DNA from: Streptomyces humicola
GTDB taxonomy: Bacteria; Actinomycetota; Actinomycetes; Streptomycetales; Streptomycetaceae
DNA length: 58,647 nucleotides
Assembly: GCF_024436035.1 (NCBI RefSeq)
Contig: NZ_JANFNG010000036.1
Coordinates: 1-58,647, forward strand
Direction of reading: 5' to 3'
Of the stretch, positions 10,838-46,569 are shown in pieces. The translations under genes and the position numbers were made by a program. Below the pieces are notes generated by a model that had not been told where the DNA came from, searched no databases, and worked only from the letters and a program-made list of their open reading frames with translations. Positions within the stretch are counted from its first letter, which is position 1. Each line of letters opens with the position of its first letter.

Positions 10838-10994
10838 TCGCTTCGCGCGTGGCTTCAACAAAGGCTTAAGAATCACCCAACTGTCCACCAACACGGCGCT
10901 TTACGGTGCTTGCACACAGTGGACATGTCTTGTGATGCTATGACCGCTTTTGCCGGTCGGCTGGAACGCTGCGTGGACTGACGAGGGGTGGTGT

Positions 10995-11966
10995 GTGCCC
11001 GTGCCGGCTCGTACTGCGCCCTCATCGAAACTGCCCGCCGAGAGCACCGCGCCGACCGGGCCCGCCGAGCGCGCCGAGGGCCGCGAGCCACGTGACGTAC
11101 CCGATCCCCACGATCCACACGACCGGCACGATCCGCACGACCCGCCACCGGAGCACCCCAACCACCCCGATCACCCCGACCCCGATGGCTCACCCCGCAG
11201 CCGCAGAGCCGCCGACGCGCGGGCGCTGACCCAGGTGCTCTTCGAGGAGCTGTCGGGACTCGAACCCGGCACTCCCGAACACACGCGCGTACGCGCCGCC
11301 CTCATCGAGATCAACCTGCCCCTGGTGCGCTACGCCGCGGCCCGCTTCCGCAGCCGCAACGAGCCGATGGAGGACGTGGTCCAGGTCGGCACCATCGGGC
11401 TGATCAACGCGATCGACCGCTTCGACCCCGCGCGCGGGGTGCAGTTCCCCACCTTTGCGATGCCGACCGTCGTCGGTGAGATCAAACGTTACTTCAGGGA
11501 CAACGTGCGCACCGTCCACGTCCCGCGCCGGCTCCATGAGCTGTGGGTGCAGGTCAGCGGTGCGATCGAGGACCTCACGGTGATGCACGGCCGCTCCCCT
11601 TCGACGGCCGAGATCGCGGGACGGCTCAAGCTCACCGAGGACGAGGTCCTGGCGTGTCTGGAGGCCGGCCGCGCCTATCACGCCACCTCGCTCGAAGCCG
11701 CCCAGGAGGGCGACGGCGCCCCAGGCCTGCTCGACCGCCTCGGATATGAGGACCCGGCGCTGGCCGGTGTCGAGCACCGCGATCTGGTGCGGCATCTGCT
11801 CGTCCAGTTGCCCGAGCGGGAGCGGCGGATTCTGCTGCTCCGTTACTTCGGCAACCTGACACAGTCGCAGATCAGTGCGGAACTCGGCGTGTCGCAGATG
11901 CATGTGTCCCGACTGCTGTCGCGCAGCTTCGCCCGATTGAGATCCGCAAATCAGCTCGAATCATAG
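10995..11966 (+). CDS. SigB/SigF-family RNA polymerase sigma factor with His-Asp-Pro linker
   Basis: Group 3 sigma factor of about 323 residues. Region 2 runs through [28 protein letters not shown] and [19 protein letters not shown]; region 3 follows; region 4 is [14 protein letters not shown], then S-Q-M-H-V-S-R-L-L. Before region 2 is a long disordered leader with an unusual repeat rich in His, Asp and Pro ([17 protein letters not shown], encoded near 11100-11150). GTG at 10995 has GAGGGG nine bases upstream; TTG at 10950 is less likely. Such factors steer stress and sporulation genes and are normally held by an anti-sigma factor, none of which lies nearby. The next gene is a paralogue. Confidence 0.9.
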
Positions 11967-12150
11967 CTGAAACGGGCTAATGGGCGACCGTAGCCTCGGT
12001 GCAAATAAGTCGACTTGGCGCTACAGCGTGTTGCCGACATGTGACATTCTGCTTGAACCGCGTTTGTGGCGGCCCGGCCTCCGGTATTCAGGTGGAGGAA
12101 CCGTCGCTCAGGCGGCGCTCGCGATCCGTCCGCGACCTCAAGGGGGTGGC

Positions 12151-12981
12151 ATGTCCGTAGAAGTGGGCAGTGCGAAGGTGCTTCAGCCCGAGGCGCCGCT
12201 CGACGCCGTCGGCGGCGAAGCCATCAACACCCGTACGCTCTCCCGCTCGTTGTTCCTAAGGCTCGCAGAGCTTCCACAGGACAGCGCCGAGCGGAGTTAC
12301 GTACGTGACACGCTCATCGAACTCAACCTCCCGCTGGTCCGGTACGCGGCCGCGCGCTTCCGCAGTCGCAACGAACCGATGGAAGACATCGTCCAGGTCG
12401 GCACCATCGGGCTGATCAAGGCGATCGACCGGTTCGACTGCAACCGCGGCGTCGAGTTCCCGACCTTCGCCATGCCCACCGTCGTCGGTGAGATCAAGCG
12501 CTTCTTCCGGGACACCTCGTGGTCGGTGCGTGTGCCGCGCCGCCTGCAGGAGTTGCGCCTGGCGCTCACCAAGGCGAGCGACGATCTGTCGCAGCGCCTG
12601 GACCGCTCGCCCACCGTCGCCGAACTCGCCTCCTGCCTGGGAGTGTCCGAGGAGGACGTGGTCGACGGCCTCGCGGTCGGCAACGCCTACACGGCGAGCT
12701 CGCTCGACTCGCCGCCGCCGGAGGACGACGGCGCGGAGGGTTCGCTCGCGGACCGGCTCGGTTACGAGGACGCGGCGCTGGAAGGCGTCGAATACCGCGA
12801 ATCGCTCAAGCCGCTGCTCGCCCAACTCCCGCCGCGCGAACGGCAGATCATCATGCTGCGTTTCTTCGCCAATATGACGCAGTCTCAGATCGGCGAGGAG
12901 GTCGGCATCTCCCAGATGCATGTCTCCAGGCTGTTGACGCGCACGCTCGCGCAATTGCGGGAAGGCCTGACCTCCGAGTAA
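12151..12981 (+). CDS. second SigB/SigF-family sigma factor
   Basis: A 276-residue group 3 sigma factor, closely related to its neighbour in regions 2 ([20 protein letters not shown]) and 4 ([23 protein letters not shown]). It lacks the His-rich leader. The -10 and -35 recognition segments differ from the neighbour's at several positions, so promoter choice may differ. ATG at 12151 has GGGGGTG upstream. The 184-bp gap before it holds its own promoter region. The tandem pair looks like a local duplication followed by divergence. Confidence 0.9.
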   Translation: MSVEVGSAKVLQPEAPLDAVGGEAINTRTLSRSLFLRLAELPQDSAERSYVRDTLIELNLPLVRYAAARFRSRNEPMEDIVQVGTIGLIKAIDRFDCNRGVEFPTFAMPTVVGEIKRFFRDTSWSVRVPRRLQELRLALTKASDDLSQRLDRSPTVAELASCLGVSEEDVVDGLAVGNAYTASSLDSPPPEDDGAEGSLADRLGYEDAALEGVEYRESLKPLLAQLPPRERQIIMLRFFANMTQSQIGEEVGISQMHVSRLLTRTLAQLREGLTSE

Positions 12982-14077: not shown

Positions 14078-15028
14078 GTGTTCTCGTCGCCCGTGACACG
14101 TATTGGTAATTCCGATCTCGACGTCTTCCCCCTGTCGCTCGGCGGCAACGTCTTCGGCTGGACCGCCGACGAGCGTGAATCCTTCGCCGTCCTTGACGCC
14201 TACACGGCGGCCGGCGGCAACTTCATCGACACCGCGGATGTGTACTCGGCCTGGATCCCGGGCAATTCCGGCGGCGAGTCCGAAGCGATCATCGGCAACT
14301 GGATGGCCTCACGCGGCAACCGCGACCAGGTCGTGATCGCCACCAAGGTGGGTTCGCACCCGGACTTCACCGGCCTGAAGGCCGCCACGATCAAGAGAGC
14401 CGCGGAGGAATCCCTTCGCCGGCTGCGCACCGACCACATCGACCTGTACTACACGCACCGGGACGACCCGGCCACCCCGGTCGAGGAGTTCATCGGCGCG
14501 CTGGACGAGCTGGTGCGCGAGGGCAAGGTGCGGCACATCGGCGCATCGAACATCGGCCCCGAGCGGCTCGCCGAGTCCCTCGAGCTCTCCCGGCGCGAGG
14601 GGCTCGCCTCGTACGTGGCACTGCAGCAGCACTACAACCTCGTGGAGCGCGCGCAGTACGAGGGCCCGCTCGCCGACGTGGTCGCGGCACACGGCCTGTC
14701 GTCGGTGCCCTACTACGCGCTCGCCTCCGGCTTCCTCACCGGCAAGTACCGTCCCGGTGCCCAGGTGGAGAGCGAGCGGGCCGGGAAGGCCGCGTCCTAC
14801 CTGGACAGCGAGCGCGGCCCGCGCGTGCTGGCCGCGCTCGACGAGGTGGCCGCGGCACACGACGCCGAGGTCGCCACCGTCGCGCTCGCGTGGCTCGCCG
14901 CGCAGCCCACGGTGGCGGCACCGATCGCCAGCGCCCGAACGGTGGGACAGCTGCCCGCGCTGCTGGCCGTGGCGGAGATCACGCTGACCGCGGACGAGCT
15001 CGACAGGCTGTCCGCCGCATCGGCCTGA
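14078..15028 (+). CDS. aldo/keto reductase
   Basis: A 316-residue NADPH-dependent oxidoreductase. The catalytic tetrad is visible: Asp and Tyr in F-I-D-T-A-D-V-Y, Lys in V-V-I-A-T-K-V-G, and His in Y-Y-T-H-R-D-D-P. The cofactor segment A-S-A-R-T-V-G-Q-L lies near the C-terminus. It reduces carbonyl compounds in the cytosol; the substrate is unknown. GTG at 14078 is taken as start. It is followed by a 10-bp stop-codon duplication and a strong terminator, so it is monocistronic. Confidence 0.9.
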   Translation: MFSSPVTRIGNSDLDVFPLSLGGNVFGWTADERESFAVLDAYTAAGGNFIDTADVYSAWIPGNSGGESEAIIGNWMASRGNRDQVVIATKVGSHPDFTGLKAATIKRAAEESLRRLRTDHIDLYYTHRDDPATPVEEFIGALDELVREGKVRHIGASNIGPERLAESLELSRREGLASYVALQQHYNLVERAQYEGPLADVVAAHGLSSVPYYALASGFLTGKYRPGAQVESERAGKAASYLDSERGPRVLAALDEVAAAHDAEVATVALAWLAAQPTVAAPIASARTVGQLPALLAVAEITLTADELDRLSAASA

Positions 15029-15044
15029 CCTGCACTGACCTGCA
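15025..15044. repeat. 10-bp tandem duplication spanning the aldo/keto reductase stop
   Basis: CTGACCTGCA occurs twice in tandem; the first copy holds the TGA stop at 15026-15028 and the second repeats it 10 bp later in another frame. Confidence 0.9.
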
Positions 15045-15070
15045 CTGTTGTGACCTGATCCGACCCGATC

Positions 15071-15105
15071 GCGGTGGCCTGTGCCGAATCGACACAGGCC
15101 ACCGC
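15071..15105 (+). terminator. strong hairpin terminator
   Basis: GCGGTGGCCTGTG and CACAGGCCACCGC form a perfect 13-bp stem with a 9-base loop, 42 bp after the aldo/keto reductase stop. Confidence 0.9.
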
Positions 15106-15147
15106 GCGCCGGTGGCGGCCGCCCGGGAGCCAATTCACTTGCGTGTA

Positions 15148-15181
15148 GCAACTAACCTCCCCTAAGGTTGCTCAAGGCAAC
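15148..15181. promoter_or_regulatory. candidate operator before the first tailed MFS gene
   Basis: GCAAC at 15148, GTTGC at 15167 and GCAAC at 15177 make two overlapping dyads, the tighter being GTTGC-tcaag-GCAAC. Spacing fits a MarR- or TetR-type repressor, but none is encoded next to it. It is unlike the GAAACG palindromes of the other two MFS genes. Confidence 0.45.
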
Positions 15182-15197
15182 TACTATGAGGAAGACG

Positions 15198-17630
15198 ATG
15201 GCTACCACCACACCGGCCCCCGCACGGCCGACGAGGGCTGCGGCAGCGGATCCGGAACATGGCTCCCACTCCGCACCCATGTCGCACCGGCAGATCATGG
15301 AGGCGCTGTCCGGGCTCATGCTCGGACTTTTCGTCGCGATCCTTTCGTCCACGATCGTCTCCACTGCCCTCCCCACGATCCTCGCCGACATCGGCGGCGG
15401 CCAGGAGGCCTACACCTGGATCGTGACGGCCGCGCTGCTCGCGGTCACGGCGACCACCCCGCTGTGGGGCAAGATGTCGGACCTGGTGAGCAAGAAGCTC
15501 CTGGTCCAACTGGCGCTGGTGCTCTACATCCTCGCCTCGGTCACCGCCGGTTTCGCGCAGAACGCCGGGATGCTCATCGCCTGCCGAGTCGTCCAGGGCA
15601 TCGGCGCGGGCGGCCTCTCCGCGCTCTCGCAGGTGATCATGGCCGCGATGATCTCCCCGCGCCAGCGCGGCCGTTACAGCGGCTACCTCGGTGCGACGTT
15701 TGCGGTGGCCACCGTCGGCGGGCCGCTGATCGGTGGCGTCATCACCGACACCAGCTGGCTCGGCTGGCGCTGGTGCTTCTACGTCGTCGTGCCGTTCGCG
15801 CTGATCGCGCTGGTCGTGCTGCAGAAGACGATCCACCTGCCGGTGGTCAAGCGCGAGACCAAGGTCGACTGGCTGGGCGCATTCTTCGTCACGGCCGCGG
15901 TTTGCCTGCTGATGGTGTGGGTCACGCTCGCGGGCGACAAGTACCCGTGGCTGTCGTGGCAGACCTACGTCATGGTCCCGGGCGCGGTCGTGCTCGGCCT
16001 GATCTTCCTGCTCGTCGAGGCGAAGGCGCGCGAGCCGATCATCCCGCTGCGGCTCTTCCGCAACGGCACCATCACGCTCACCTCCATGAGCAGTGTGTTC
16101 GTCGGCGTCGCGATGTTCGCGGGCACGTACTTCCTCAGCCAGTACTTCCAGCTGGGGCGGGACAAGACGCCGGCGATGTCCGGTGTCATGACGATCCCGA
16201 TGGTCGCCGGTCTCTTCGTCGCCTCCACGCTCTCGGGCCAGATCATCACCCGTACCGGGCGCTGGAAGGCGTTCCTGGTCGCCGGCGGCATCTTCCTCAC
16301 CGCGGGCGCGGCGCTGCTCGGACTCATACGCCACGACACGCCGTACTGGCAGGTCGCGGTCTACACGGCGCTGCTCGGTGTCGGCATCGGCATGATGATG
16401 CAGAACCTGGTGCTCGCCGTGCAGAACCAGGTCGCTACCGAGGACCTCGGCTCGGCGAGCTCCCTGGTGACCTTCTTCCGGACCCTCGGCGGCGCCATCG
16501 GCGTCGCGGCGCTCGGTGCGGCGCTGTCCAACCGCATCACGCACTACATGCAGGATGGCTTCGCCTCGCTCGGCATCCCGATGCCGGCGACTCAGGGCGG
16601 CGAGGCCAATCTGCCCGATCTGTCGAAGCTGCCCGTACCGATCCGCCAGATCACCGAGGTCGCGTACGGGCACGGACTTGCGGACATTTTCCTGTACGCG
16701 TCGCCCTTCGCCTTCATAGCCTTTCTGCTGGTGCTCTTCATCAGGGAAGTACCGCTGAAGACGGCGAGCGGGCTGCAGCAGTCGGCGGGCGTGCCCGCGC
16801 ACTCGGCGGCAGCAGCAGCACAGCAACCTGCGGCGACCGCGTTGGCTGAGGAGGAGTTGATGGACGGCATCAGCATTCACGGTTCGGTGAGCGGCGCCGA
16901 CGGCACTGCCGTCGCCTCCGCCACCGTGACCCTCATCTCGCTGCAGGGGCGGCAGTTGGGGCGCGCAGTGGCCAGGCACGACGGGTCGTACGCGATCGAC
17001 TCGCCGGGCGCCGGGTCCTACGTACTGATCGCGGCCGCGGAAGGGCATCAGCCGCAGGCCACCACGGTGGTCGTCGGCAACGAGCCGCTCACCCACGACA
17101 TCGTTCTGTCCGGCACGAGCGGGCTCGCCGGTGTGGTGCGCGCACTGGCCGACGCGGTTCCGGTGGCCGATGCGATGGTCGTCGTCACCGATGTGCGCGG
17201 CGAGGTGCTCGCGACCGGCAAGACGGGCCCGGCCGGCACCTTCAGCTTCGACGAACTGCCCGCGGGCACCTTCACGGTGGCGGTCAACGCGAGCGGATAC
17301 CGTCCCGTGGCCCTTCCTGTCGAGGTCGGCGCGGCAGGAATCACCCGGATCGAGGTGGAACTGCGCTCCGGGGCCTATCTGCAGGGTACGGTGCGAGCGG
17401 GGGCGGACCGCCGTCCCCTGAACGACGCGCGGGTCACGTTGCTCGACGCGGCCGGGAATGTGGCGGGTACGGCGACCACGGGGGATGACGGCACCTATGC
17501 CTTCACCGATCTGGACGCCGGCGACTACACGTTGATCGCCAGCGGATATCCGCCGGTGGCCACCTCGATGACCGTGGACTCCTACGGCGGCGAAGGCTAC
17601 GACGTGGAACTCGGCCACCCCCAGCAGTAG
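15198..17630 (+). CDS. DHA2-type MFS exporter with three C-terminal carboxypeptidase-regulatory-like domains
   Basis: An 810-residue protein. About fourteen hydrophobic segments (residues roughly 30-525) form a drug:H+ antiporter-2 exporter: L-S-S-T-I-V-S-T-A-L-P in helix 1, G-K-M-S-D after helix 2, and R-V-V-Q-G-I-G-A-G-G-L in helix 4. The last 255 residues are three Ig/prealbumin-like domains starting near 555, 643 and 728, each with a V-(R/S)-G-x-D...A-x-V-T-L-L pattern and a G-x-Y-x-F/L...G-Y close; the last ends I-A-S-G-Y-P-P-V-A-T-S and G-H-P-Q-Q. With fourteen helices the tail should face the cytosol, which is odd for such domains. ATG at 15198 follows GAGGAAG; ATG at 15186 is an alternative. 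Two paralogues occur in this window. The substrate is unknown. Confidence 0.9.
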   Translation: MATTTPAPARPTRAAAADPEHGSHSAPMSHRQIMEALSGLMLGLFVAILSSTIVSTALPTILADIGGGQEAYTWIVTAALLAVTATTPLWGKMSDLVSKKLLVQLALVLYILASVTAGFAQNAGMLIACRVVQGIGAGGLSALSQVIMAAMISPRQRGRYSGYLGATFAVATVGGPLIGGVITDTSWLGWRWCFYVVVPFALIALVVLQKTIHLPVVKRETKVDWLGAFFVTAAVCLLMVWVTLAGDKYPWLSWQTYVMVPGAVVLGLIFLLVEAKAREPIIPLRLFRNGTITLTSMSSVFVGVAMFAGTYFLSQYFQLGRDKTPAMSGVMTIPMVAGLFVASTLSGQIITRTGRWKAFLVAGGIFLTAGAALLGLIRHDTPYWQVAVYTALLGVGIGMMMQNLVLAVQNQVATEDLGSASSLVTFFRTLGGAIGVAALGAALSNRITHYMQDGFASLGIPMPATQGGEANLPDLSKLPVPIRQITEVAYGHGLADIFLYASPFAFIAFLLVLFIREVPLKTASGLQQSAGVPAHSAAAAAQQPAATALAEEELMDGISIHGSVSGADGTAVASATVTLISLQGRQLGRAVARHDGSYAIDSPGAGSYVLIAAAEGHQPQATTVVVGNEPLTHDIVLSGTSGLAGVVRALADAVPVADAMVVVTDVRGEVLATGKTGPAGTFSFDELPAGTFTVAVNASGYRPVALPVEVGAAGITRIEVELRSGAYLQGTVRAGADRRPLNDARVTLLDAAGNVAGTATTGDDGTYAFTDLDAGDYTLIASGYPPVATSMTVDSYGGEGYDVELGHPQQ

Positions 17631-17794
17631 TTCACCAAACGCCAGGAAACCACAACAGATCAGACGACTGGCCCGCGCGCACAGCGGAGGCGTACGGGCC
17701 GGTTCCGGGGGGAAGCGGGTTCCGGCCGGCGGCCGGGCAAGGGACGGCCCGAGCTGTCCGGCCGGACCCGCAACCAAGACATTCGGGAGTGACT

Positions 17795-18631
17795 ATGAGC
17801 ATGGACGGCGACGGCGGACTGCGCGGCCGGGTACGGACCAAGGACGGCTGGGCGGTGCAGCATGCGGTGCTCACCGTCACCGATATGACAGGAAGCCAGG
17901 TCGAACGGGGAACGGCCGACGAAGAGGGTGTGGTGCGCACCGGCCCGCTGCCGGCCGGCGCCTACACCGTGATCGTGACGGCGGTCGGCTATCAGCCCAC
18001 CGCGTCGACGGCGATCGTCCCGGCCTCCGGGCGGGCGGACATCGGCACCCTGGTGCTGGCACGGCAGGGCGGCGCCGAGCTGCCGCCACCCGGGACCTGG
18101 ACCATCGACCCGGCCCACTCGACGGTGGGCGCGGTCGCGCAGCACCTGGGGATCTCCAGCGTGCACGGCCACTTCACCGAGTTCCGCGGCCGGATCGAGA
18201 TCGCGGAGGTGCTGGAGGAGTCGTCGGTGACGGCCGCGATCACGGCGGCGAGCATCGACACCGGCAACAAGATGCGCGACGACCACCTGCGCTCGGCGGA
18301 CTTCCTCGACGTCGACCAGCACCCGGAGATCACCTACCGCAGCACGGGCGGCATCTCCCCGGCCGGCCCGGACCGCTGGACGGTGCACGGCGAGCTGACG
18401 ATGAACGCGCTCACCCGGCCGGTGAACCTCGACCTGACCTACCTGGGCACGGGACCCGATCCGTGGGGCGGCGTGCGGGCCGCGTTCCATGCCACCACGG
18501 AGCTGCGGCGCGAGGACTTCGCGATGAACTACAACCAGGTGCTGCAGGCGGGCATCAGCGCGATCGGCACCACGCTGCGCGTCGAGCTCGACATCCAGGC
18601 GGTGCAGGGGGATTCGCTGCCGATGAGGTGA
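17795..18631 (+). CDS. YceI-family protein with N-terminal carboxypeptidase-regulatory-like domain
   Basis: A 278-residue protein. Residues about 8-90 are the same Ig-like domain found in the tail of the upstream MFS protein (L-R-G-R-V-R-T-K-D-G-W-A-V, then A-Y-T-V-I-V-T-A-V-G-Y). Residues about 98-275 are a YceI lipocalin-like barrel: W-T-I-D-P-A-H-S at its start, H-L-R-S-A-D-F-L-D-V-D and P-E-I-T-Y-R-S in the middle. YceI proteins bind isoprenoid-like or amphiphilic lipids. There is no signal peptide, so it should be cytosolic. CGGGAG stands five bases before the ATG. It lies 164 bp after the exporter and probably works with it, for example by presenting a hydrophobic substrate; that is inference. 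Confidence 0.88.
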   Translation: MSMDGDGGLRGRVRTKDGWAVQHAVLTVTDMTGSQVERGTADEEGVVRTGPLPAGAYTVIVTAVGYQPTASTAIVPASGRADIGTLVLARQGGAELPPPGTWTIDPAHSTVGAVAQHLGISSVHGHFTEFRGRIEIAEVLEESSVTAAITAASIDTGNKMRDDHLRSADFLDVDQHPEITYRSTGGISPAGPDRWTVHGELTMNALTRPVNLDLTYLGTGPDPWGGVRAAFHATTELRREDFAMNYNQVLQAGISAIGTTLRVELDIQAVQGDSLPMR

Positions 18632-18675: not shown

Positions 18676-19146
18676 ATGTCGCCTCGCATCGCTACCAACA
18701 CGACCGTCGGCCTGGATGAGTTGCTGGAGTTCGTCCGGCCACGGCACCGGGCGATCCTGCTGACGACGCGCGCGGACGGGCGGCCGCAGGGCTCGCCCGT
18801 CTCCTGTGGCGTGGACGATTCCGGGCGGGTGGTGGTCTCCACGTATCCGCAGCGCGCGAAGGCTCGCAACGTGCGGCGCGATCCGCGCGCGTCGGTGCTC
18901 GTGCTCTCCGACGACTGGGACGGGCCGTGGGTGCAGATCGACGGTCCGGCCGAGGTCGTCGACCCGCCCGAATCGGTGGAACCCCTGGTGGAGTACTACC
19001 GCAATATCGCGGGGGAGCATCCCGACTGGGATGAGTACCGAGAGGCGATGCGGCGTCAGGGCAAGTCGCTGGTCCGGATCACCCCCGAGCACTGGGGGCC
19101 GGTCGCGACGGGCGGTTTCCCCGCCGAGGTTGCGCGGCAGGACTGA
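18676..19146 (+). CDS. PPOX-class F420-dependent oxidoreductase-like protein
   Basis: A 156-residue split-barrel flavin/F420-binding protein. R-A-I-L-L-T-T-R-A-D-G-R-P-Q-G-S-P-V at residues about 27-44 is the typical family core, followed by V-V-V-S-T-Y-P-Q-R-A-K-A-R-N and D-P-R-A-S-V-L-V-L. It most likely uses F420, which streptomycetes make, to reduce an unknown substrate. ATG at 18676 fits the family start. Its 3' end carries an 18-bp direct repeat of GACTGAGGA that repeats the stop codon. Confidence 0.87.
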   Translation: MSPRIATNTTVGLDELLEFVRPRHRAILLTTRADGRPQGSPVSCGVDDSGRVVVSTYPQRAKARNVRRDPRASVLVLSDDWDGPWVQIDGPAEVVDPPESVEPLVEYYRNIAGEHPDWDEYREAMRRQGKSLVRITPEHWGPVATGGFPAEVARQD

Positions 19147-22509: not shown

Positions 22510-23103
22510 GTGCCATCGACATCGCAGCCGCGTCCTCGCCGCACGCGCCTCACGCCCGAGCGTGAAGGCGAGTTGTACGAGGCGGTGCTCACCCTCCTCC
22601 GCGAGGGCGGCTACGACGCCCTCACCATGGAGGGCGTTGCCGCCCGCTCGCGCAGCAGCAAGGCCACGCTCTACCGCCAGTGGGGGACCAAGCCCCGGCT
22701 GGTCGCCGAGGCGCTCCGTCACCACCGGCCCTTCGGCCTCGACAACCTCGACACCGGCTCCCTGCGAGGGGACCTCATCGAACTCGTGGGCCGGATCGGC
22801 AGGGCGAAGAAGGACTTCGAGGTCCTGGGCACCGTCGCCTACGCCGCCCGTCAGGACGAGGAGCTCGCGGCGGCGCTCCACGCCGCCCTCGTCCAACCCA
22901 TGGTGGACGTCCTGCGGGCGATGACCGACCGCGCGGTGGCGCGTGGCGAAGTCGCCCCGGACGCGCCCGCGTTGCCGCTCCTCCCGCACCTGCTGATGGG
23001 TGCCCAGGTCGGCCGCAAACTCGTCGACCGGCGGGAACCGGACGCCGGCTTCCTCACGTGCTTCGTGGACGCCGTCGTCCTCCCCGCACTGACACAGACC
23101 TGA
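22510..23103 (+). CDS. TetR-family repressor of the adjacent tailed MFS gene
   Basis: A 197-residue TetR protein. The HTH is L-Y-E-A-V-L-T-L-L-R-E-G-G-Y-D-A-L-T-M, then A-R-S-R-S-S-K-A-T-L-Y-R-Q-W. The ligand domain resembles that of the TetR at 45.96 kb (F-G-L, D-T-G-S-L-R-G-D-L, then P-H-L and F-V-D-A-V-V-L-P). GTG at 22510 is the start. Two palindromes lie just upstream, so autoregulation with control of the exporter 98 bp downstream is likely. The ligand is unknown. Confidence 0.92.
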   Translation: MPSTSQPRPRRTRLTPEREGELYEAVLTLLREGGYDALTMEGVAARSRSSKATLYRQWGTKPRLVAEALRHHRPFGLDNLDTGSLRGDLIELVGRIGRAKKDFEVLGTVAYAARQDEELAAALHAALVQPMVDVLRAMTDRAVARGEVAPDAPALPLLPHLLMGAQVGRKLVDRREPDAGFLTCFVDAVVLPALTQT

Positions 23104-23201: not shown

Positions 23202-25565
23202 ATGCCACCCTTGACGGTCGGCGAATCGCACGCCGAAGGAAATGCCGAAGCAGCGGACCGGACGCGCTCCCGGCACGCCCCGGCCGCCGCGGAGCAGCAG
23301 CATCACGTCCCGCACCGCTGGTGGGTGCTGGCCGTCATCGGCCTCGCCCAGCTGATGGTGGTGCTGGACGTCACCATCATGAACATCGCGCTGCCGACCG
23401 CGCAGCAGCACCTGCACTTCGACAACAACGGCCGCCAGTGGATCGTCACGGCCTACTCGCTCGCCTTCGGCAGTCTCCTGCTGCTCGGCGGCCGCCTCGC
23501 CGACCTGTTCGGCCGACGCGTCACCTTCCTCGTCGGACTCGTCGGCTTCGCCGGCGCCTCCGCACTGGGCGGTGCCGCGCAGGACTTCAAGATGCTGGTG
23601 ATCGCGCGCGCCGTCCAGGGTGCATTCGGCGCCGTCCTCGCGCCCTCCGCGCTGTCGTTGCTGACCACCACCTTCACCGACCCGAAGGAACGCGCCAAAG
23701 CCTTCGGCGTGTTCGGCGCCATCGCCGGTTCCGGCGGCGCGGTCGGCCTGCTGGTCGGCGGACTGCTCACCGAACACCTCAGCTGGCGCTGGACGCTCTA
23801 CGTCAACTGCTTCATAGCCGTCTTCGCGGTCGTCGGCGCGCTCGCCTTCGTCCGACAGCAGCCGCAGACGCACAAGCCCAAGCTCGACGTGCTCGGCACG
23901 CTGCTGGCCGCGGGCGGGCTGTTCTGCGTCGTCTACGGGTTCGCCAACGCCCAGACCTACTCCTGGGGCGACAGGATGTGTTGGGGCTTCCTCGCCGGCG
24001 GCGGCGTGCTGCTGCTGGCGTTCGTGCTGTGGGAGATGCGCGCCGCCCATCCGCTGCTGCCGCTACGGGTGTTCGCCGACCGCAACCGCGGGGCCTCGTT
24101 CCTGTCGGTGTTCGTGCTCGGCGCCGGCATGTTCGGCATCATGCTCTTCCTCACCTACTACCTGCAGTCGACGCTGCACTACTCGCCGGTCAGGACCGGT
24201 CTCGCCTTCCTGCCGTTGATCGGCGCAATGATGGTCTTCGCGCAGCTCGGCATGCTCGTCCTGGTGCCGAGGGTCGGCGGCAAGCCGGTGGCCCCGGTGG
24301 GCATGGCGCTCGCCGTCGGCGGCATGATCTGGCTGACCAAGCTCGACCTGAACAGCTCCTACCCGGCCCATGTGCTGCCGGGGCTGCTTCTGGTCGGCTG
24401 CGGCCTCGGCCTGGTGATGCCGTGCGCGCTGAGCCTCGCCACCTACGGTGTGGCCGCGAACGACCAGGGCGTGGCCTCGGCGTCCATCAACACCATGCAG
24501 CAGGTGGGTGGTTCGATCGGCGTCGCGCTGTTCAGCACCATGGCCGCCAAGTCGGCGACACACTACGTCGATCACCACCTGACGATGCCGAAGCCGCTGC
24601 TCGCGGCCGAGGCGGCACTGCACTCCTACGCCACCGGCTACTGGTGGGCGGCGGGCTTCTTCGCCGTCGGCGCGCTCCTCGCCCTGCTGCTCTACCGGGC
24701 CGGGCGACCGATGGCCGCGCCGACTCCCGCCGGGGCACCGGCGGCTCCCTCGGCGGCACTTGATGCGGCTCCGGCGGACAGCCGCCGTGCCATAGAGGCG
24801 GGCCACGTCGGCCCGGCGGTGCACGGCAGGGTGCTCACCCCCGGCGGGGGAACGCTGCAGGGCGCCGCCATCACCCTGATCGACCAGACCGGCCACCAGC
24901 TGGGCCGGGCCCTGTCCGGCCCCGACGGCAGCTTCGAGCTCTCCGCCCCGACCGCCGGCACCTATCTGCTGGTCGGCTCGGCACGCGGCCTCCAACCGCA
25001 GGTGAGTGCCGTGGCTCTGGGCTCCGGGCCGACCGCCACCGACGTGGTGCTGGGCGGCGCGGGCGGACTGTCCGGCACGGTACGGGCGAACGGCGCGCCG
25101 GTGCAGGGCGCGGTGGTCGTCGTCAGCGACGCGCGCGGCGAGGTCATCGGCTCGGCCGTCACCGACGCGTCCGGCGAGTACCTGCTCACGGACATCCCCG
25201 CGGGCGCGTGCACGGTGACCGTCTCCGCCTCCGGGCACCGTCCCACGGCGGGCCCGGTCGAGGTGGACGGCGCATCGCCGACCCGCCACGACGTGGACCT
25301 GCGCGAGGCGGTGCAACTACGCGGGACGGTACGGGACTCGCATGGTCTCCCGGTGACGGACGCAAAGGTCGCACTCCTCGACCGCAGCGGCACCGTCATC
25401 ACATCCCTGACCACCGGCCCGGACGGTACGTACGCCTTCGTCGACCTCACGGGCGGCGACTACACCCTGATCGCCAGCGGCTACCCGCCACAGGCCACGT
25501 CCGTCTCCATCACCGACGCCGAGCGCACAGCGGTCGATATGACGCTCGGTCACGAGGAGGAATGA
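23202..25565 (+). CDS. DHA2-type MFS exporter with three C-terminal carboxypeptidase-regulatory-like domains (second copy)
   Basis: A 787-residue paralogue of the exporter at 15.2 kb and closer still to the one at 46.6 kb. The membrane part (residues about 38-510) has the DHA2 motif L-D-V-T-I-M-N-I-A-L-P, then R-Q-W-I-V-T-A-Y-S-L and R-L-A-D-L-F-G-R-R. The tail has three Ig-like domains starting near residues 540, 624 and 706, ending I-A-S-G-Y-P-P-Q-A and G-H-E-E-E. CAGGAGG stands ten bases before the ATG. It is controlled by the TetR gene upstream and probably expels a toxic hydrophobic compound sensed by it; substrate and role of the tail are unknown. Confidence 0.92.
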   Translation: MPPLTVGESHAEGNAEAADRTRSRHAPAAAEQQHHVPHRWWVLAVIGLAQLMVVLDVTIMNIALPTAQQHLHFDNNGRQWIVTAYSLAFGSLLLLGGRLADLFGRRVTFLVGLVGFAGASALGGAAQDFKMLVIARAVQGAFGAVLAPSALSLLTTTFTDPKERAKAFGVFGAIAGSGGAVGLLVGGLLTEHLSWRWTLYVNCFIAVFAVVGALAFVRQQPQTHKPKLDVLGTLLAAGGLFCVVYGFANAQTYSWGDRMCWGFLAGGGVLLLAFVLWEMRAAHPLLPLRVFADRNRGASFLSVFVLGAGMFGIMLFLTYYLQSTLHYSPVRTGLAFLPLIGAMMVFAQLGMLVLVPRVGGKPVAPVGMALAVGGMIWLTKLDLNSSYPAHVLPGLLLVGCGLGLVMPCALSLATYGVAANDQGVASASINTMQQVGGSIGVALFSTMAAKSATHYVDHHLTMPKPLLAAEAALHSYATGYWWAAGFFAVGALLALLLYRAGRPMAAPTPAGAPAAPSAALDAAPADSRRAIEAGHVGPAVHGRVLTPGGGTLQGAAITLIDQTGHQLGRALSGPDGSFELSAPTAGTYLLVGSARGLQPQVSAVALGSGPTATDVVLGGAGGLSGTVRANGAPVQGAVVVVSDARGEVIGSAVTDASGEYLLTDIPAGACTVTVSASGHRPTAGPVEVDGASPTRHDVDLREAVQLRGTVRDSHGLPVTDAKVALLDRSGTVITSLTTGPDGTYAFVDLTGGDYTLIASGYPPQATSVSITDAERTAVDMTLGHEEE

Positions 25566-26150: not shown

Positions 26151-27782
26151 TTAGGAGCAGCCGGGCACCGAGCCGGGTGGGAAGCACTGGTTTGGGGTGT
26201 TGCCGGTTACTGGGCTGTTGGTCAGGGTCACCGTTCCGAAGTTGTAGATCCCGCCTCCGGTGGATCTCGGCGGGGGCAGTGCCCTGTTGCGGGTGACCGG
26301 GCTGTTCTGGAGCGTGGCGGTGGAACCGATGGTGTTGAAAAGGCCCCCACCCTGGCCGGCACCCGCGATGTCGGCTTGGGCGGTGTTGTTGGTCAGCGGG
26401 CTGTTGGTCAGCGTTGCTGTAGCGGTCGTCGTGCTACTTGAGCTGTTGTAGATGCCGCCGCCTTGGCCGGTACCGGCGGTACCGGCTTGGGCGACGTTGC
26501 CGAAGAGGGGGCTGTTGGTGACGGTCAGCGTGCCCGCGTTGCCGATGCCGCCGCCTTGGCCGGCACTCCCGGCGCCGCCGTGGGCGATGTTGCCGAACAG
26601 GGAGCTATTGGTGACACTCATGCTGCCCAAGTTGCTGACACCGCCACCGAAGCCGATCCCGACGGGGGCGGTGGCGGTGGCGTGGTTGCCAGTCACCAGG
26701 CTGCTGGCCAGGGCCACTGTGCCGCTGGAATTAAATAGGCCACCGCCAGCGGCCGAGCCTTGCAATACGTCGTTGACGACGGTGTTGTCGGCGATACGGG
26801 CACTGTTTACCCTCACCATGCCGGCCATTACGTAAATACCTCCGCCAGATGCTGGACGGACGTTCTGCGCGTGGGCCGTATTGCTGGTGACGCTGCTGTT
26901 TTCGACAGTCGTGCTGCCGCTTTGTAGGGAAATACCCCCACCCTGTGTGAAAGACGACTCACTCTGAGCCGTATTGCCAGTGACGCGGCTGTTGTTGACA
27001 GTTGTGGTGGTGGCGCCGAGTGCGCGCATACCGCCGCCCTGCTGCGCAGTGTTGTTGCTCAGCGTGCTGACATTAACCGTGACCCTGCCGCCTTCGTTTT
27101 CGATCCCGCCACCAGACTCATCGGCGGTGTTGTCGGTGATTGTGCAGGCGAAGAGCGTCAACGAGGCGCCATCGACGAAGATCGCGCCTCCATCGTTGCT
27201 GGAAGCGTGACCGTTGCTCAAAGTCAGGTTATTGAGAGTCAATTTTCCGTTTGGTCCGTCGATTCGGAAGAAGCGGAACTCGGTGGCGCTGGCGGATCGG
27301 GTGATTGTGTCACCGTTACCATTGACCGTGACGGTCGCTTCGATCACCGGAAACCCGTTATCGTCATTGTTGGGTGCCGTAGCATTCGTGAGGGTGTAGA
27401 CGCAGCCCGGCCGGAGGCTGACCGTGCCACCGGCCGTGGCCACAGCACCGATCGCCGCCTGCAAATCTTGTTCGCTACAACTGGGCACCGTCACGAACAG
27501 CGCCCGGCTAGTGATCCTGGCGGGCGCGCTGGCTCCACGCGAAGTGGTGTGCCCGTGAACACGGTCGGTGTGTGCCGGAATCGACGGCAACACGGCGGCC
27601 GCCGCCGGGTGGGACTGGTGTGTGGGCAGAGGCGGCGGTGTTGTCCACACGTCCCCGTTGACGGCGAACGCGGGCACCACGTCCACCAAGGCGCCAACCA
27701 CGGTCAGGAACGCGACGAGCCAAACGCGCCGGCCCCGTCTTCCGCGGTGATGAGTCGAGTCGCTGAGCCTCGGCACTTCCAT
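26151..27782 (-). CDS. secreted right-handed parallel beta-helix repeat protein
   Basis: A 543-residue exported protein. A basic N-terminus with G-R-R-G-R-R-V-W precedes a hydrophobic signal L-V-A-F-L-T-V-V-G-A-L. From about residue 170 it is built of repeats with the pattern N-x-x-A...G-G-G-I-x-N-x-G-x-(L/V)-T-(L/V)-x-N-S, typical of right-handed beta-helices as in pectate-lyase-like and polymorphic outer-membrane proteins. A Cys pair lies early (S-C-S-E, P-G-C-V-Y) and another at the C-terminus. Codons such as AAA, TTG, ATT, GTA, AAT and ACT are far more common than in the neighbours, suggesting recent arrival. It stands between two copies of a short repeat and beside an integrase remnant. 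No enzyme residues are recognisable; adhesion or glycan binding is possible. Confidence 0.85.
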   Translation of the reverse strand: MEVPRLSDSTHHRGRRGRRVWLVAFLTVVGALVDVVPAFAVNGDVWTTPPPLPTHQSHPAAAAVLPSIPAHTDRVHGHTTSRGASAPARITSRALFVTVPSCSEQDLQAAIGAVATAGGTVSLRPGCVYTLTNATAPNNDDNGFPVIEATVTVNGNGDTITRSASATEFRFFRIDGPNGKLTLNNLTLSNGHASSNDGGAIFVDGASLTLFACTITDNTADESGGGIENEGGRVTVNVSTLSNNTAQQGGGMRALGATTTTVNNSRVTGNTAQSESSFTQGGGISLQSGSTTVENSSVTSNTAHAQNVRPASGGGIYVMAGMVRVNSARIADNTVVNDVLQGSAAGGGLFNSSGTVALASSLVTGNHATATAPVGIGFGGGVSNLGSMSVTNSSLFGNIAHGGAGSAGQGGGIGNAGTLTVTNSPLFGNVAQAGTAGTGQGGGIYNSSSSTTTATATLTNSPLTNNTAQADIAGAGQGGGLFNTIGSTATLQNSPVTRNRALPPPRSTGGGIYNFGTVTLTNSPVTGNTPNQCFPPGSVPGCS

Positions 27783-30082: not shown

Positions 30083-33000
30083 GTGAGCAGCAGGCCATCC
30101 CGAGGCGCTGCTCGCCTCGCGGCAATACTCGACGCACTGCCCGATGCGCTGCTGCTCGTCAACGCCAACGGAACGGTCGTCAACGCCAACGCCATAGCGC
30201 TGGAGACCTTCGAGGCGCCCGGCACGGCCCTGGTCGGCCGCGGCCTGCTCGATCTCCTCCCGGAATTCGACTCCCGCCGCATCCCCGGCTCCATGCGCCG
30301 CCCCGACCCCGAAGAGGGCCGGCGCACCAAGCCGACCCGCATGGTCGCCCGGAGGACCGACGGGAGCGAGTTCCCAGTCGAGGTCACCAGCGCCAACCTG
30401 GAGGACAGCCGCACCCCGTATGCCGACCCGTACGCCCCGGTCGCCCACTACTCCGGCGACGAGCTGCTGATGCTCGTGGTACGGGACCTCACCGGCACCC
30501 TCGACACCGAGGCCGAACTCGCCCGCCAGCAGCGCCAGACGGAGATGATCCTGCGCGCCGCGAGCGAGGGTGTCGTCGGCGTGGACACCGAGGGCAAGGT
30601 CGTCCTCGTCAACCCGGCCGCCGCCCAGATCCTCGGCTTCCGCGCCAGCGACCTCGGCGGCCAGGAGCTGCACCCGCTCGTTCACCACACGCGCGCCGAC
30701 GGCTCCCCGCTGCCGTTCGAGGAGACCCCGCTCGCCGACACGCTTCGTTCCGGCCGCAAGCACCGGGTGCGCGGCCAGGTGCTGTGGAGGAAGGACGGCA
30801 GGGCGGTGCCGGTCGACCTGACGACGGCGCCGGTGCGCGAGGGCGACCAGCTCGTCGGTGCGGTCATGACGTTCACCGACCGCAGCCGTTACGACGCGCT
30901 CGCGGGGCGCCACGCCCAGCTGCGCGCCGTGCTCGACTCCTCGCTGCGCGCCCCGCTGGGCGAGCTGCGCGGCGAGCTGACCAACCTCGCCTCCGACCCG
31001 GCGGGCCAGTTGTGGCCCGAGGCCAACCAGACGCTGCACCATCTCGCCGCCGGATACGCGCGGATGACCACGCTCATCGACAACGTGCTCTCCTTCCAGC
31101 GCCTCGACGCTGGCAAGGAGAAGCTGGAGCGTCAGGTGGTGGCCCTGGACACGGTGGTGGCCGCGGGCGTCGAGGGCGCGATCGAGCTGATCGGGCCGGG
31201 ACGGGCGCAGTACGCCGTGCACGCGCCGCCGATCAACGCCTCCGTGGACCCGACGCGCCTCGCCCAGGCGCTCGCGCACCTGATCGCGGATGTCGCGGGT
31301 GTGGACGCCACCGGCAGGACTGCGGTGGTCGCGGGCGGCGGCGACTCGACGATCGTGGTGGCCGCGGCACAGCGCGGCGACGTCGTACGGATCGAGGTGC
31401 GCGGGCCGCACAGCGGCGGCGATCCGGTGCACCTTCCGATCACCCGCGGGATTGTGGAGCGGCACGGCGGTGTGCTGCAGACGCACGAGGTGCCGGGGCA
31501 GGGCGGCAGCGCGTACGTGCTCGAAGTGCCGGTCGGTGACGCCGACGACGGCGGTCCCGACACGGAGGCGCTGCAGACCCCGAAGGACGGCCCGACGCGG
31601 GACAACGAGACGACGGTCATGCCCGTTCCGGCACAGCCGGCGCGGGGCACGCAGAACGATGTGGCGTCGGCGGAGGGCGCACCGGCCGAGCGGGCACCGC
31701 GGCCGCGCCGCCCGGTCGACGACAGCAACGGCGGTGCGGGCACGGCGATCGCGCTGCCCGCCGGGCCGTCCGCCGCCGTCGCCGCGAGTACGGGCGCGGT
31801 GGCGGCCGACGCGGCGGAGGCGGAGGAGAGGCCGACCGGGCGCCGGCGTGCTCTGCGGCGCGCGGAGCGCGCGGAGGCCGGCGGGGAACCTGTCGGCGGC
31901 GGGCAGGCACACGCCGCGGGCGAGGCCCGGGCGAGCGGGCGCCGCGCCCGACGCACGCTCGCCGAGGGACAGGGACAGCAGGAACAACGGGGACAGGGAC
32001 AGCAGGGGCGGCAGAGTCGGCAGCCCGAACTGCCGCCGCGTCCGGCCGCGCACGCACTGCCGCCGGGCGGTCAGACCCATCCGGTTCCGCCTGCCGACGG
32101 GAACACCGACGGCGTACCTGCCGTGAACGGATCGCACGGCGCCTGGCCCGCACCCGCACCGACGCCCTCGCCCGCGCCTGCGGCGCCCGACCTGCCCGCG
32201 CAGGTCGCATGGCCGAATCCCGCGCTGCCGCAGCCGGGCCCGAGCACGCCCGTGAACGGCACCGCGCCGGCCCCGCAGTCCGGACCGGCCCCGCTGCCCG
32301 AGGCCGTCGAGCCGGAGTCCGCGCCGGCGCCGCGGCGCGCGCCGAAGCACGCACCGCCCGGACCCGCCTCCCAGTCGGACCGGTCGACGCAGTCGGAGGG
32401 ACGGGCGATCAGCGTCCGGACGCTGGGGCAGGGTGTGCAGTTTGCGCAGGCACCGGCGCCCGAGCAGGCTCCCGTTCAGTCCTCCCTTCCGGTGCCCGCG
32501 CAGCAGCGGGTGCCGCAGCAGACACCGCAGCAGCCTGCGCAGGGCGGCGGCGGCTCGGGGCGGCGGCGCAAGCTCGCCACCCCGCAGGCGGCGCAGCAGC
32601 AGGCCGCGCAGCAACAGGTCGGCGAGGCACGGGAGTTGGAACCCGCCGCGCGGCCGCATCCGTCGACCGACTCCGGATCGTCCAACCCTGCCTTCCTCGC
32701 CAGCGACAGTCAGGGCGAAGGCCAGGCGTTCGCCATAGGAGCCCCGGCGGAGGGCGCGGAGGGCCCCGAGCACCTCGACGGCCCGGGCGGCGCGGTCGAG
32801 GTGAGCACGGCGGCCAGGGCGGAGCCGGCAGGGACGTCCGAGCCGGATGCCGACGCACCCGTCGTCCTGGACGGCCCGCGGCGGCTGCTCGTCTGGCCCG
32901 AGCCCGACGTGTCGACCCGGCAGGCGCTCACCGACCGCGGCTACCGGCCGGTGACCGTGCGTTCCCGCGAGGAGGTGGACGCGCAGGTCGCCGAGTATCC

Positions 33001-33580
33001 GGCGGCGCTGTTCGTCGACCCGCTCACCGGGCCGATCACGCGAACCGCCCTGCAGTCCCTGCGCGCGGCGGCGGTGGCGGCGGAGGTGCCCGTCCTGGTG
33101 ACGGCGGGCCTCGGGCAGGCCACCCGGGAAGCGGCGTACGGTGCTGATCCCGCCGTGCTGCTCAAGGCGCTCGCCCCGCGCGACAGCGAGCAACACCCGC
33201 CGCGCGTCCTGCTCGTGGAGAGCCACCAGGACATCGCATCGGCGTTCACCGCGACCCTTGAACGCCGCGGCATGCAGGTCGCCCACGCGGCCTCCGAGGA
33301 GGACGCGGCGGCGCTCGCCGAGCGGATGCGGCCGAATCTGGTCGTGATGGACCTGATGCTGATCAGGCGGCGCCGCCTCGGAATCGTCGACTGGTTGCGT
33401 GTCAACGGCCTGCTCAACCGCACCCCGCTCGTCGTCTACACGTCCGTGGACATCGACCCGGCCGAGCTCCCGCGCCTCGGTTCCGGCGAGACGGTGCTGT
33501 TCCTCGCCGAACGGTCGACGAGCGGCGAGGTCCAGACCCGGATCGTGGACCTGCTGAGCAAGATCGGCACCGATCTGTAG
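30083..33580 (+). CDS. large PAS / pseudo-histidine-kinase / receiver-like protein
   Basis: A 1165-residue cytosolic protein. Two PAS domains occupy residues about 8-140 and 150-270 (I-L-D-A-L-P-D-A-L-L-L-V, then I-L-R-A-A-S-E-G-V-V-G-V). A histidine-kinase-like module follows, but the phosphorylated His is missing: the HisKA position reads L-D-S-S-L-R-A-P-L-G-E-L, and the ATPase part lacks clear N and G boxes. A Pro/Gln/Ala-rich disordered stretch runs from about 500 to 900. The C-terminus resembles a receiver domain (V-L-L-V-E-S-H-Q-D, V-V-M-D-L-M-L) with one acidic-pocket residue replaced. It probably works as a sensing scaffold rather than an enzyme. GTG at 30083 has GGGAGG nine bases upstream. 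Related proteins are familiar in streptomycetes; their role is not known to me. Confidence 0.8.
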   Translation: MSSRPSRGAARLAAILDALPDALLLVNANGTVVNANAIALETFEAPGTALVGRGLLDLLPEFDSRRIPGSMRRPDPEEGRRTKPTRMVARRTDGSEFPVEVTSANLEDSRTPYADPYAPVAHYSGDELLMLVVRDLTGTLDTEAELARQQRQTEMILRAASEGVVGVDTEGKVVLVNPAAAQILGFRASDLGGQELHPLVHHTRADGSPLPFEETPLADTLRSGRKHRVRGQVLWRKDGRAVPVDLTTAPVREGDQLVGAVMTFTDRSRYDALAGRHAQLRAVLDSSLRAPLGELRGELTNLASDPAGQLWPEANQTLHHLAAGYARMTTLIDNVLSFQRLDAGKEKLERQVVALDTVVAAGVEGAIELIGPGRAQYAVHAPPINASVDPTRLAQALAHLIADVAGVDATGRTAVVAGGGDSTIVVAAAQRGDVVRIEVRGPHSGGDPVHLPITRGIVERHGGVLQTHEVPGQGGSAYVLEVPVGDADDGGPDTEALQTPKDGPTRDNETTVMPVPAQPARGTQNDVASAEGAPAERAPRPRRPVDDSNGGAGTAIALPAGPSAAVAASTGAVAADAAEAEERPTGRRRALRRAERAEAGGEPVGGGQAHAAGEARASGRRARRTLAEGQGQQEQRGQGQQGRQSRQPELPPRPAAHALPPGGQTHPVPPADGNTDGVPAVNGSHGAWPAPAPTPSPAPAAPDLPAQVAWPNPALPQPGPSTPVNGTAPAPQSGPAPLPEAVEPESAPAPRRAPKHAPPGPASQSDRSTQSEGRAISVRTLGQGVQFAQAPAPEQAPVQSSLPVPAQQRVPQQTPQQPAQGGGGSGRRRKLATPQAAQQQAAQQQVGEARELEPAARPHPSTDSGSSNPAFLASDSQGEGQAFAIGAPAEGAEGPEHLDGPGGAVEVSTAARAEPAGTSEPDADAPVVLDGPRRLLVWPEPDVSTRQALTDRGYRPVTVRSREEVDAQVAEYPAALFVDPLTGPITRTALQSLRAAAVAAEVPVLVTAGLGQATREAAYGADPAVLLKALAPRDSEQHPPRVLLVESHQDIASAFTATLERRGMQVAHAASEEDAAALAERMRPNLVVMDLMLIRRRRLGIVDWLRVNGLLNRTPLVVYTSVDIDPAELPRLGSGETVLFLAERSTSGEVQTRIVDLLSKIGTDL

Positions 33581-45957: not shown

Positions 45958-46569
45958 GTGGTGACTTCTGGCGCGGAGACCAGTCCGAGCCGTACGCGGC
46001 GGACCAGGCTTACGCCGGAGCGTGAAGAAGAGCTGTATGCGGCCGTTCTCGACCTGCTGCGCGAGGTGGGCTACGACGCGCTCACGATGGACGCCGTCGC
46101 CGCCCGGGCGCGGTCCAGCAAGGCCACGCTCTACCGCCAGTGGCAGGGCAAGCCCCGGCTGGTGGCCACCGCCCTGCGTCACCACAAGTCTTTCGGCCTG
46201 GAGAGCGTCGACACCGGCTCGCTCCGCGGCGATCTGTACGAGATCGCCCGCCGGATCGGCGAGGGGCCCAGCCGCAAGGACGCGGCGCTGATGCGCGCGC
46301 TCGGCCAGGCCGTCAACTGCAACGACGAACTGGCGGACGCCCTCCACGAGACACTGATCCAGCCGGAGCAGGCGATTTTGCGGCGGATGCTCGAACGCGC
46401 CGTGCGGCGCGGCGAGATCGCGCCCGACAACCCCGCCATCGACTTCGTGCCACACCTCATCGCCGGAGCGGCCTTCGCCCGGCCGATCCTGGAACGAACC
46501 GACGCCGATACCGCGTACCTCGAACGCTATGTGGACGCCGTCGTACTGCCGGTGCTGTCGCGGAACTGA
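45958..46569 (+). CDS. TetR-family repressor of the second tailed MFS operon
   Basis: A 203-residue paralogue of the TetR at 22.5 kb. The HTH is nearly identical (L-T-P-E-R-E-E-E-L-Y, G-Y-D-A-L-T-M, S-S-K-A-T-L-Y-R-Q-W), and the C-terminal domain shares F-G-L-E-S-V-D-T-G-S-L-R-G-D-L and Y-V-D-A-V-V-L-P. Identical recognition helices and near-identical operators predict cross-binding to the other operon. GTG at 45958 or 45961 starts it. The exporter gene begins 30 bp after its stop. Confidence 0.92.
   Translation: MVTSGAETSPSRTRRTRLTPEREEELYAAVLDLLREVGYDALTMDAVAARARSSKATLYRQWQGKPRLVATALRHHKSFGLESVDTGSLRGDLYEIARRIGEGPSRKDAALMRALGQAVNCNDELADALHETLIQPEQAILRRMLERAVRRGEIAPDNPAIDFVPHLIAGAAFARPILERTDADTAYLERYVDAVVLPVLSRN

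Follow-up and report, generated by a model that had tools for sequence, protein, structure and literature searches.

The route by which greasy molecules made or met inside a bacterium get to an exporter is mostly ascribed to membrane diffusion. In mycobacteria, the MFS protein Rv1410 (P55) is encoded in one operon with the lipid-binding protein LprG, the pairing is conserved, and lipid transport by Rv1410 has been reported (available text of PMC10576003). Lipids have also been seen in the pathway of EfpA (accessible part of PMC10802681). Lipocalins of the YceI family carry isoprenoids and also bind hydrophobic drugs and antibiotics; BcnA/BcnB and LcoA, which bind isoprenoids and hydrophobic antibiotics, are encoded beside a membrane protein (PMC5350466 and PMC9113575, in the portions available). 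Here we describe a stretch of 58,647 nucleotides from Streptomyces humicola (contig NZ_JANFNG010000036.1, positions 1 to 58,647; "the window") in which an MFS exporter with a C-terminal tail of three CarboxypepD_reg domains adjoins a YceI lipocalin fused at its N terminus to one such domain. The domain is called CPR below, and the fusion protein CPR-YceI.

Three genes in the window, all on the forward strand, encode tailed exporters: exporter 1 at 15198-17630 (or 15186-17630, the ATG codons at 15186 and 15198 both being possible starts), exporter 2 at 23202-25565, and exporter 3 at 46600-48915. A preliminary description of the window, made from its letters, had claimed three-domain CarboxypepD_reg tails on three 14-helix MFS exporters, and Pfam bears this out. 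Each protein has MFS_1 (E = 6.4e-47 in exporter 1) followed by three PF13620 domains, with E values of 2.3e-34, 5.5e-39, and 3.6e-39 and scores of 118.0, 132.8, and 133.4 bits, respectively, against a cut-off of 32.3. The IASGYPP block and G-H-(E/P) ending that it had also pointed out are present in the last domain of each exporter, which ends in GHP or GHE. The tail domains are of three distinct types, D1, D2, and D3, in a fixed order, and each resembles the same type across exporters more than its neighbours in one tail. In exporter 1, D1 (16869-17120), D2 (17121-17372), and D3 (17373-17627; with the IASGYPP block) were assigned by Pfam, domain-type models, and AlphaFold2; the tails of exporters 2 and 3 occupy 24816-25562 and 48163-48912. 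The AlphaFold2 model of exporter 1 (pLDDT 81.5, pTM 0.60) comprises 14 helices (residues 30-513; 15285-16736), also predicted by hydropathy, a low-confidence linker (residues 523-554; 16764-16859; pLDDT < 50), and three beta domains (residues 558-805). The linker is variable, with a mean identity of 31% over 27 aligned rows versus 66-74% for the core and tail domains.

Hydropathy and positive-inside counts gave 14 helices, with both termini inside, in six exporters of the S. humicola genome; the hydropathy threshold was lowered protein by protein until 14 segments emerged, and the N termini of L013 and L015 are longest-open-reading-frame starts, which inflates the inside positive count. The exporter tail is accordingly predicted to lie in the cytosol, where the preliminary description had put it, and the 14-helix AlphaFold2 model is consistent with this placement. 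Foldseek returned EfpA, the Rv1410 homologue MHAS2168, EmrB, and QacA as the best matches of the exporter 1 core. EfpA (8ufd, 8x6x) is the best match in both sequence and fold, and the solved Rv1410 homologue (8pnl) matches the core as well; the match to EfpA is confined to the core, and neither a CarboxypepD_reg tail nor a YceI partner is mentioned in the accessible part of PMC10802681. The core is probably of the DHA2 type typified by EmrB and QacA, with the 14 helices of that type found by hydropathy and AlphaFold2, and these matches too cover only the core. Against the TIGR00711 (DHA2/EmrB) cut-off of 230.2, exporter 2 scored 237.6, exporter 1 218.8, and exporter 3 223.3. The DUF1416 profile also scores on the exporter tails; a 96-residue protein elsewhere (L017:3947-4237) with a weak CarboxypepD_reg hit of 25.9 bits, below the cut-off, is one that we take to be DUF1416.

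The CPR-YceI reading frame spans 17789-18631 on the forward strand, with a better start at ATG 17795, which is preceded by GGGAG. Pfam placed PF13620 at residues 11-81 (17819-18031; E = 2.6e-11, 44.1 bits), confirming the N-terminal domain of the preliminary description, and the YceI lipocalin PF04264 at 18098-18601 (E = 1.8e-43; 148.9 bits against a cut-off of 23.7). In the AlphaFold2 model (pLDDT 79.9, pTM 0.67), a beta domain comes first and then strands in a barrel-like pattern. With Foldseek, its top three matches are YceI structures (TMt 0.81-0.89), and there is a weak match to the transthyretin-like domain of carboxypeptidase D. The nearest solved sequence is TT1927b of Thermus thermophilus (1wub; E = 1.4e-44 by PDB profile match), a protein named as polyisoprenoid binding; it is a 178-residue chain, and the match is to the lipocalin part only. 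No hydrophobic N-terminal segment was found by hydropathy in any of 80 CPR-YceI proteins (highest 15-residue mean, 1.03), in keeping with the lack of a signal peptide noted earlier, and CPR-YceI is predicted from its sequence to be cytosolic. By the same measure, it resembles neither an exported lipoprotein of the LprG type nor a secreted YceI protein such as BcnA. Thus, whereas LprG is a lipid-anchored periplasmic lipoprotein, the partner here is a YceI lipocalin without a signal peptide, and the tail of the exporter is predicted to be cytosolic. BcnA differs further in being paired or fused with cytochrome b561 instead of an exporter, and no CPR domain is mentioned in the available portions of PMC5350466 and PMC9113575.

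The preliminary description had made its proposal depend on tailed MFS and domain-fused YceI genes occurring together in other genomes, and they do. In all 122 loci examined that carry this type of CPR-YceI, including the window, the D3 end of a tail lies 300 to 746 nucleotides ahead of the lipocalin domain and on its strand; these loci span four families, and none of the 122 has a CPR-YceI of the paired type without a tail. Chance adjacency was rejected on this count. An MFS core stands in the same frame as the tail in 117 of the loci; a contig end truncates L083, L108, and L185, and only the tail is left in L049 and L056. The 122 are loci, not species, and 120 are distinct by DNA (L054/L078 and L111/L286 are identical pairs). 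The best 80 of 568 CPR-YceI loci, mostly from Streptomyces with some from Streptacidiphilus, Actinacidiphila, and Actinomadura, all have the tail immediately ahead of CPR-YceI in the same orientation, in 78 of them as part of a whole exporter and in the other 2 at a contig end; being the best of 568, they are biased toward close relatives. Distant members from three other families (L184-L188) keep the tail-YceI order. In a sample of 296 genomes drawn evenly from the class, 25 carry CPR-YceI, and all 25 also carry the tail, adjoining it by coordinates. The tail was found at E <= 1e-30 in 37 of 61 genomes of a set of relatives and in 37 of the 296 class genomes (the S. humicola genome being in both), and an orthologous CPR-YceI fusion (full length, at least 64% identity) in 20 of the 61, S. 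humicola included. By adjacency, therefore, an MFS exporter and a protein of a lipid-binding family are encoded together, as in the Rv1410-LprG pair. A second CPR-YceI paralogue (L069-L076 and L189), about 40-44% identical to that of the window, stands in varied neighbourhoods and occurs in 11 of the 296 genomes (E below 1e-110); an F420-type PPOX-like gene adjoins it in L073.

Two further genes commonly accompany the pair. A MarR gene (E <= 1e-5, on either strand and anywhere in the locus) is present in 94 of 107 loci, and 59 of 80 pass a simple rule of same strand and upstream; the window has none, and the upstream gene there is one for an aldo/keto reductase (14078-15028). Between that gene and exporter 1 (15029-15185), imperfect repeats around GTAGCAAC/GGTTGC were seen by eye and may be a regulator site. 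Downstream of CPR-YceI, the window encodes an F420-dependent PPOX-class oxidoreductase (TIGR03618) at 18676-19146 on the forward strand (NCBIfam, 138.9 bits; cut-off, 79.05). Of the 106 other paired loci, 39 likewise have an F420-type PPOX gene as the next gene in the same orientation; in 8 more the longest frame starts far upstream and the true start is ambiguous, and for 55 there is none in the stretch.

In L049, from the same genus as the window, and L056, from another genus, the exporter core is gone, while the tail and CPR-YceI remain adjacent with open frames. MarR is missing from both, as it is from the window. L049 matches the window in three pieces, one up to about 14084, one from about 15132 to 15203, and one from about 16845; the middle piece, which is 75% identical, is the region before the exporter. 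In L049, then, the region that precedes the exporter in the window now precedes the tail, and the aldo/keto reductase gene is missing from there. That gene is kept in L056 (6002-6937), where no remnant of MarR or of the core was detectable. Both deletions have their right-hand end within the linker, 8 codons and about 22 codons short of D1. The two losses look like separate events, though both assemblies are drafts, of 410 and 130 contigs.

Between these deletion ends and D1, the intact gene of the window has an internal AGGAGG (16849-16854) and, at 16860, an ATG in frame and three codons short of D1 (16849-16862, forward strand), the predicted start of a free tail of 256 residues. Each of the 11 distinct paired loci in the clade of the window has an AGGAGG and a start at this place (ATG in 10, TTG in L079), the loci being the window, L049-L056, L079, and L080, a supported 11-row group of the tail tree; the linker ahead of the motif varies within this clade, and the motif stays. 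Because an internal Shine-Dalgarno sequence and start are kept at the tail boundary, the exporter gene in the window's clade probably yields a free tail as well. An internal site of any kind within 25 codons occurs in 17 of the 122 paired tails, versus 0.9% of core windows; in the other tails it was seen in 10 of 68, mostly as GTG further upstream. An internal start serving all tails was considered and rejected, its occurrence at that place being confined to the window's clade.

The tail is not restricted to the paired exporters. The S. humicola genome encodes four more tailed MFS exporters, in L012, L013, L014 (D1 and D3 only), and L015, and a tailed MMPL (RND-type) transporter with D1-D2 only (L014:12096-15260, contig C23); the latter adjoins a gene whose product has an aminotransferase class I/II domain (L014:9496-11682). 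Elsewhere, the tail is found on two further MMPL transporters (L191 and L193) and, as a complete D1-D2-D3, on a FUSC-family transporter (L192:2697-5966). Tail-like proteins of 326 residues (L197:4724-5704; no membrane segment) and 302 residues (L269:4280-5188) are encoded in fetched stretches that hold no exporter-core match, and a plasmid copy in Streptomyces anthocyanicus (L272) has no CPR-YceI match in the stretch examined. Tail and core similarity are uncoupled: exporter 1 and the L013 exporter are 28% identical in the core and 63% in the tail, and exporters 2 and 3 are 68% identical in the core and 48% in the tail. In a FastTree tree of 90 tails, the three MMPL tails fall in three places, that of S. 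humicola within a well-supported group of MFS tails and the other two as long branches, one of them a risky join. We infer that the tail is a transferable module, because it is also carried by MMPL and FUSC exporters.

The CPR domain of CPR-YceI is about as well conserved as the lipocalin (75% and 78%; 27 rows), and the link between the two is the best conserved part (84%). In single-sequence hidden Markov model scoring, this domain reached 41 and 42 bits with the models of D1 and D2 and 33 with that of D3, versus 20-30 between it and the CPR of its own paralogue, which places it nearer to D1 and D2. A first covariation run (79 pairs; effective number of sequences [Neff], 17) gave a weak signal. 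The final run used 117 paired rows (Neff, 33) and omitted L049, L056, L083, L108, and L185, the latter four without a complete exporter; its top covarying pairs favour tail with CPR over core with CPR, and tail with lipocalin is not favoured. Among the top 100 pairs, 11, 14, and 8 join D1, D2, and D3 to CPR, versus 3.6, 4.0, and 2.7 for entropy-matched core columns, and the CPR-tail excess recurs in the top 100 of both disjoint row subsets, the larger being weaker in the top 300. Gene conversion as its source was rejected by eye, the strongest of the pairs inspected lying at nonhomologous positions (D2 offset of about 50 versus CPR offset of about 18). In a control with tails of a nonpartner exporter from the same 30 genomes, partner tail-CPR pairs made up 39 of the top 100 (19.0 expected) and nonpartner pairs 9 (15.5 expected); before column matching, partner pairs stood at 1.9-2.1 times expectation in the top 50-200 and 1.7 times in the top 400. 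With entropy-matched columns (25 expected in each class), CPR accounted for 39.7 partner and 19.3 nonpartner pairs of the top 100, and the lipocalin for 27.2 and 13.8, respectively. The covariation thus shows an effect of linkage and an effect of likeness, and the extra for partner with CPR is weak. A jackknife put the double ratio of partner by CPR at 1.15-2.25 in the top 100 in 12 of 12 runs of 22 genomes, runs that are not independent.

Our best explanation for the whole, held tentatively and at somewhat less than an even chance, is that the genes at 15.2-18.6 kb belong to an export unit conserved among actinobacteria, in most cases made up of marR, the tailed MFS exporter, and CPR-YceI and often followed by an F420-type PPOX gene, in which a cytosolic lipocalin hands cargo to the tailed exporter. 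YceI would hold a hydrophobic or isoprenoid- or quinone-like cargo in the cytosol, its CPR domain would contact the tail domains, which would hang from the exporter by the flexible linker, and the cargo would pass to the inner opening of an EfpA- or Rv1410-like exporter. That the cargo may be a lipid is argued from knowledge of the family. In the window's clade, a free tail from the internal start might work together with CPR-YceI away from the membrane. YceI is probably one of several possible clients of the tail, because the module occurs on MMPL and FUSC exporters too. A wider form of the proposal, in which cytosolic carriers such as CPR-YceI land on the tails of unrelated exporters (MFS, MMPL, and FUSC) and on the free tail and bring hydrophobic cargo to the pump from the inside, as a mirror image of the periplasmic LprG-Rv1410 system, is more speculative, and we consider it possible and no better than that. 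A literature search for analogues, for the tail, and for the YceI-MFS pair returned no description, with bioRxiv and most subscription papers outside its reach; PMC6868719 mentions both YceI and MFS and, in the part available, places YceI beside sulfonamide monooxygenase genes.

The preliminary description went further and suggested that YceI is a lipid-binding shuttle docking to the exporter tail through like domains. What stands of this claim is indirect, namely, the retention of the pair after loss of the core and covariation above the core control; the extra over nonpartner tails proved inconsistent. A number of results weigh against the hand-over proposal. Profile-profile scores of the YceI CPR with D1, D2, and D3 (63, 68, and 62) are close to that with its paralogue (60). 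Mirror-tree correlations were 0.72-0.76 for the tail domains with CPR and 0.69-0.74 for the tail domains with YceI, and are uninformative as docking evidence because CPR is hardly set apart from the lipocalin. The covariation drew on a small effective number of sequences (16-33); in the top 300 of the larger row subset tail with lipocalin was raised too, as D3 with lipocalin was in its top 100, and before matching the ratio of tail-CPR to tail-lipocalin pairs was about as raised for nonpartner tails as for partner tails in the top 200-400. The matched double ratio in the full set was 1.57 in the top 50 and near 1 in the top 100 and top 200 (1.04 and 1.05). The internal start at the D1 boundary is absent outside one clade. 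Of the 37 genomes with the tail in the 296-genome sample, 12 gave no CPR-YceI hit at E <= 1e-12, exporters of the paired type lack a YceI alongside in L254 and L255, and the second CPR-YceI paralogue has no tailed exporter beside it in any of the nine loci inspected; a tail match is missing altogether from 2 of the 11 genomes with this paralogue (G191 and G341). The gap between the MFS stop and the YceI start ranges from 64 to 452 bp (median, 207.5; 80 loci), so there is no tight translational coupling of the two. A reading in which the tails exist for this YceI is not supported, in view of the tail-bearing genomes without a CPR-YceI hit and of the paralogue without a tailed neighbour. Given that paralogue and L254 and L255, neither tail nor CPR-YceI strictly needs the other everywhere.

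Many of these observations would be expected if the tail were a general exporter accessory, for stability, sensing, or a common partner, with YceI sharing the regulon and the cargo without contact and its CPR being a relic or a local duplicate. Tails on exporters without YceI and in genomes without a CPR-YceI hit, a paralogue that needs no tail, the loose intergenic gap, and a CPR-tail covariation much of which can be taken as linkage and likeness added together all suit such an accessory. It accounts less well for the retention of tail and CPR-YceI after core loss in two genera, for a YceI CPR about as conserved as the lipocalin, and for covariation exceeding that of the exporter core, and we regard it as doubtful, though a serious contender. 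The presence of the tail in tail-only proteins as well as on exporters of three families (MFS, MMPL, and FUSC), its independence from the cores, and the internal start for a free tail would also fit a homotypic glue, by which exporter tails, free tails, and CPR-YceI build a mixed cytosolic scaffold that clusters exporters without any hand-over of cargo. CPR-YceI, however, stands beside one tailed exporter and is not spread among them, and partner tails covary with it above nonpartner tails, a result that linkage alone could also give; a scaffold of this kind seems improbable to us. Finally, the topology prediction could be wrong and the tails could be wall or ligand-binding domains outside the cell. 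SdrD, NOMO2, carboxypeptidase N, and a pilus adhesin, the solved proteins related to the tail in sequence, act outside the cytosol. Against this stand the 14 helices and positive-inside pattern of six exporters, the 14-helix model, and the adjoining CPR-YceI with no signal peptide, and the MMPL and FUSC carriers of the tail have cytosolic C termini; we judged an outside location to be very unlikely indeed.

Several other features of the window and its counterparts were recorded. TetR regulator genes, identified by Pfam, stand upstream of exporter 2 (22510-23103) and exporter 3 (45958-46569), both on the forward strand. Two sigma factor genes of the sigma-70 type, with regions 2, 3, and 4, lie in tandem at 10950-12981, and similar genes were seen by eye near the pair in L049, L051, and L190. 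A 543-residue protein encoded on the reverse strand at 26151-27782 has repeated T-N-S-type units, noted by eye, and no Pfam match at 1e-5; at 30083-33580 a 1,165-residue PAS protein is encoded that has a response regulator receiver domain at its C terminus.

If the hand-over proposal is true, a cytosolic carrier and a matching exporter tail would constitute a defined hand-over step in Streptomyces, a big source of hydrophobic natural products. A tail common to three unrelated exporter families would be one handle on them.

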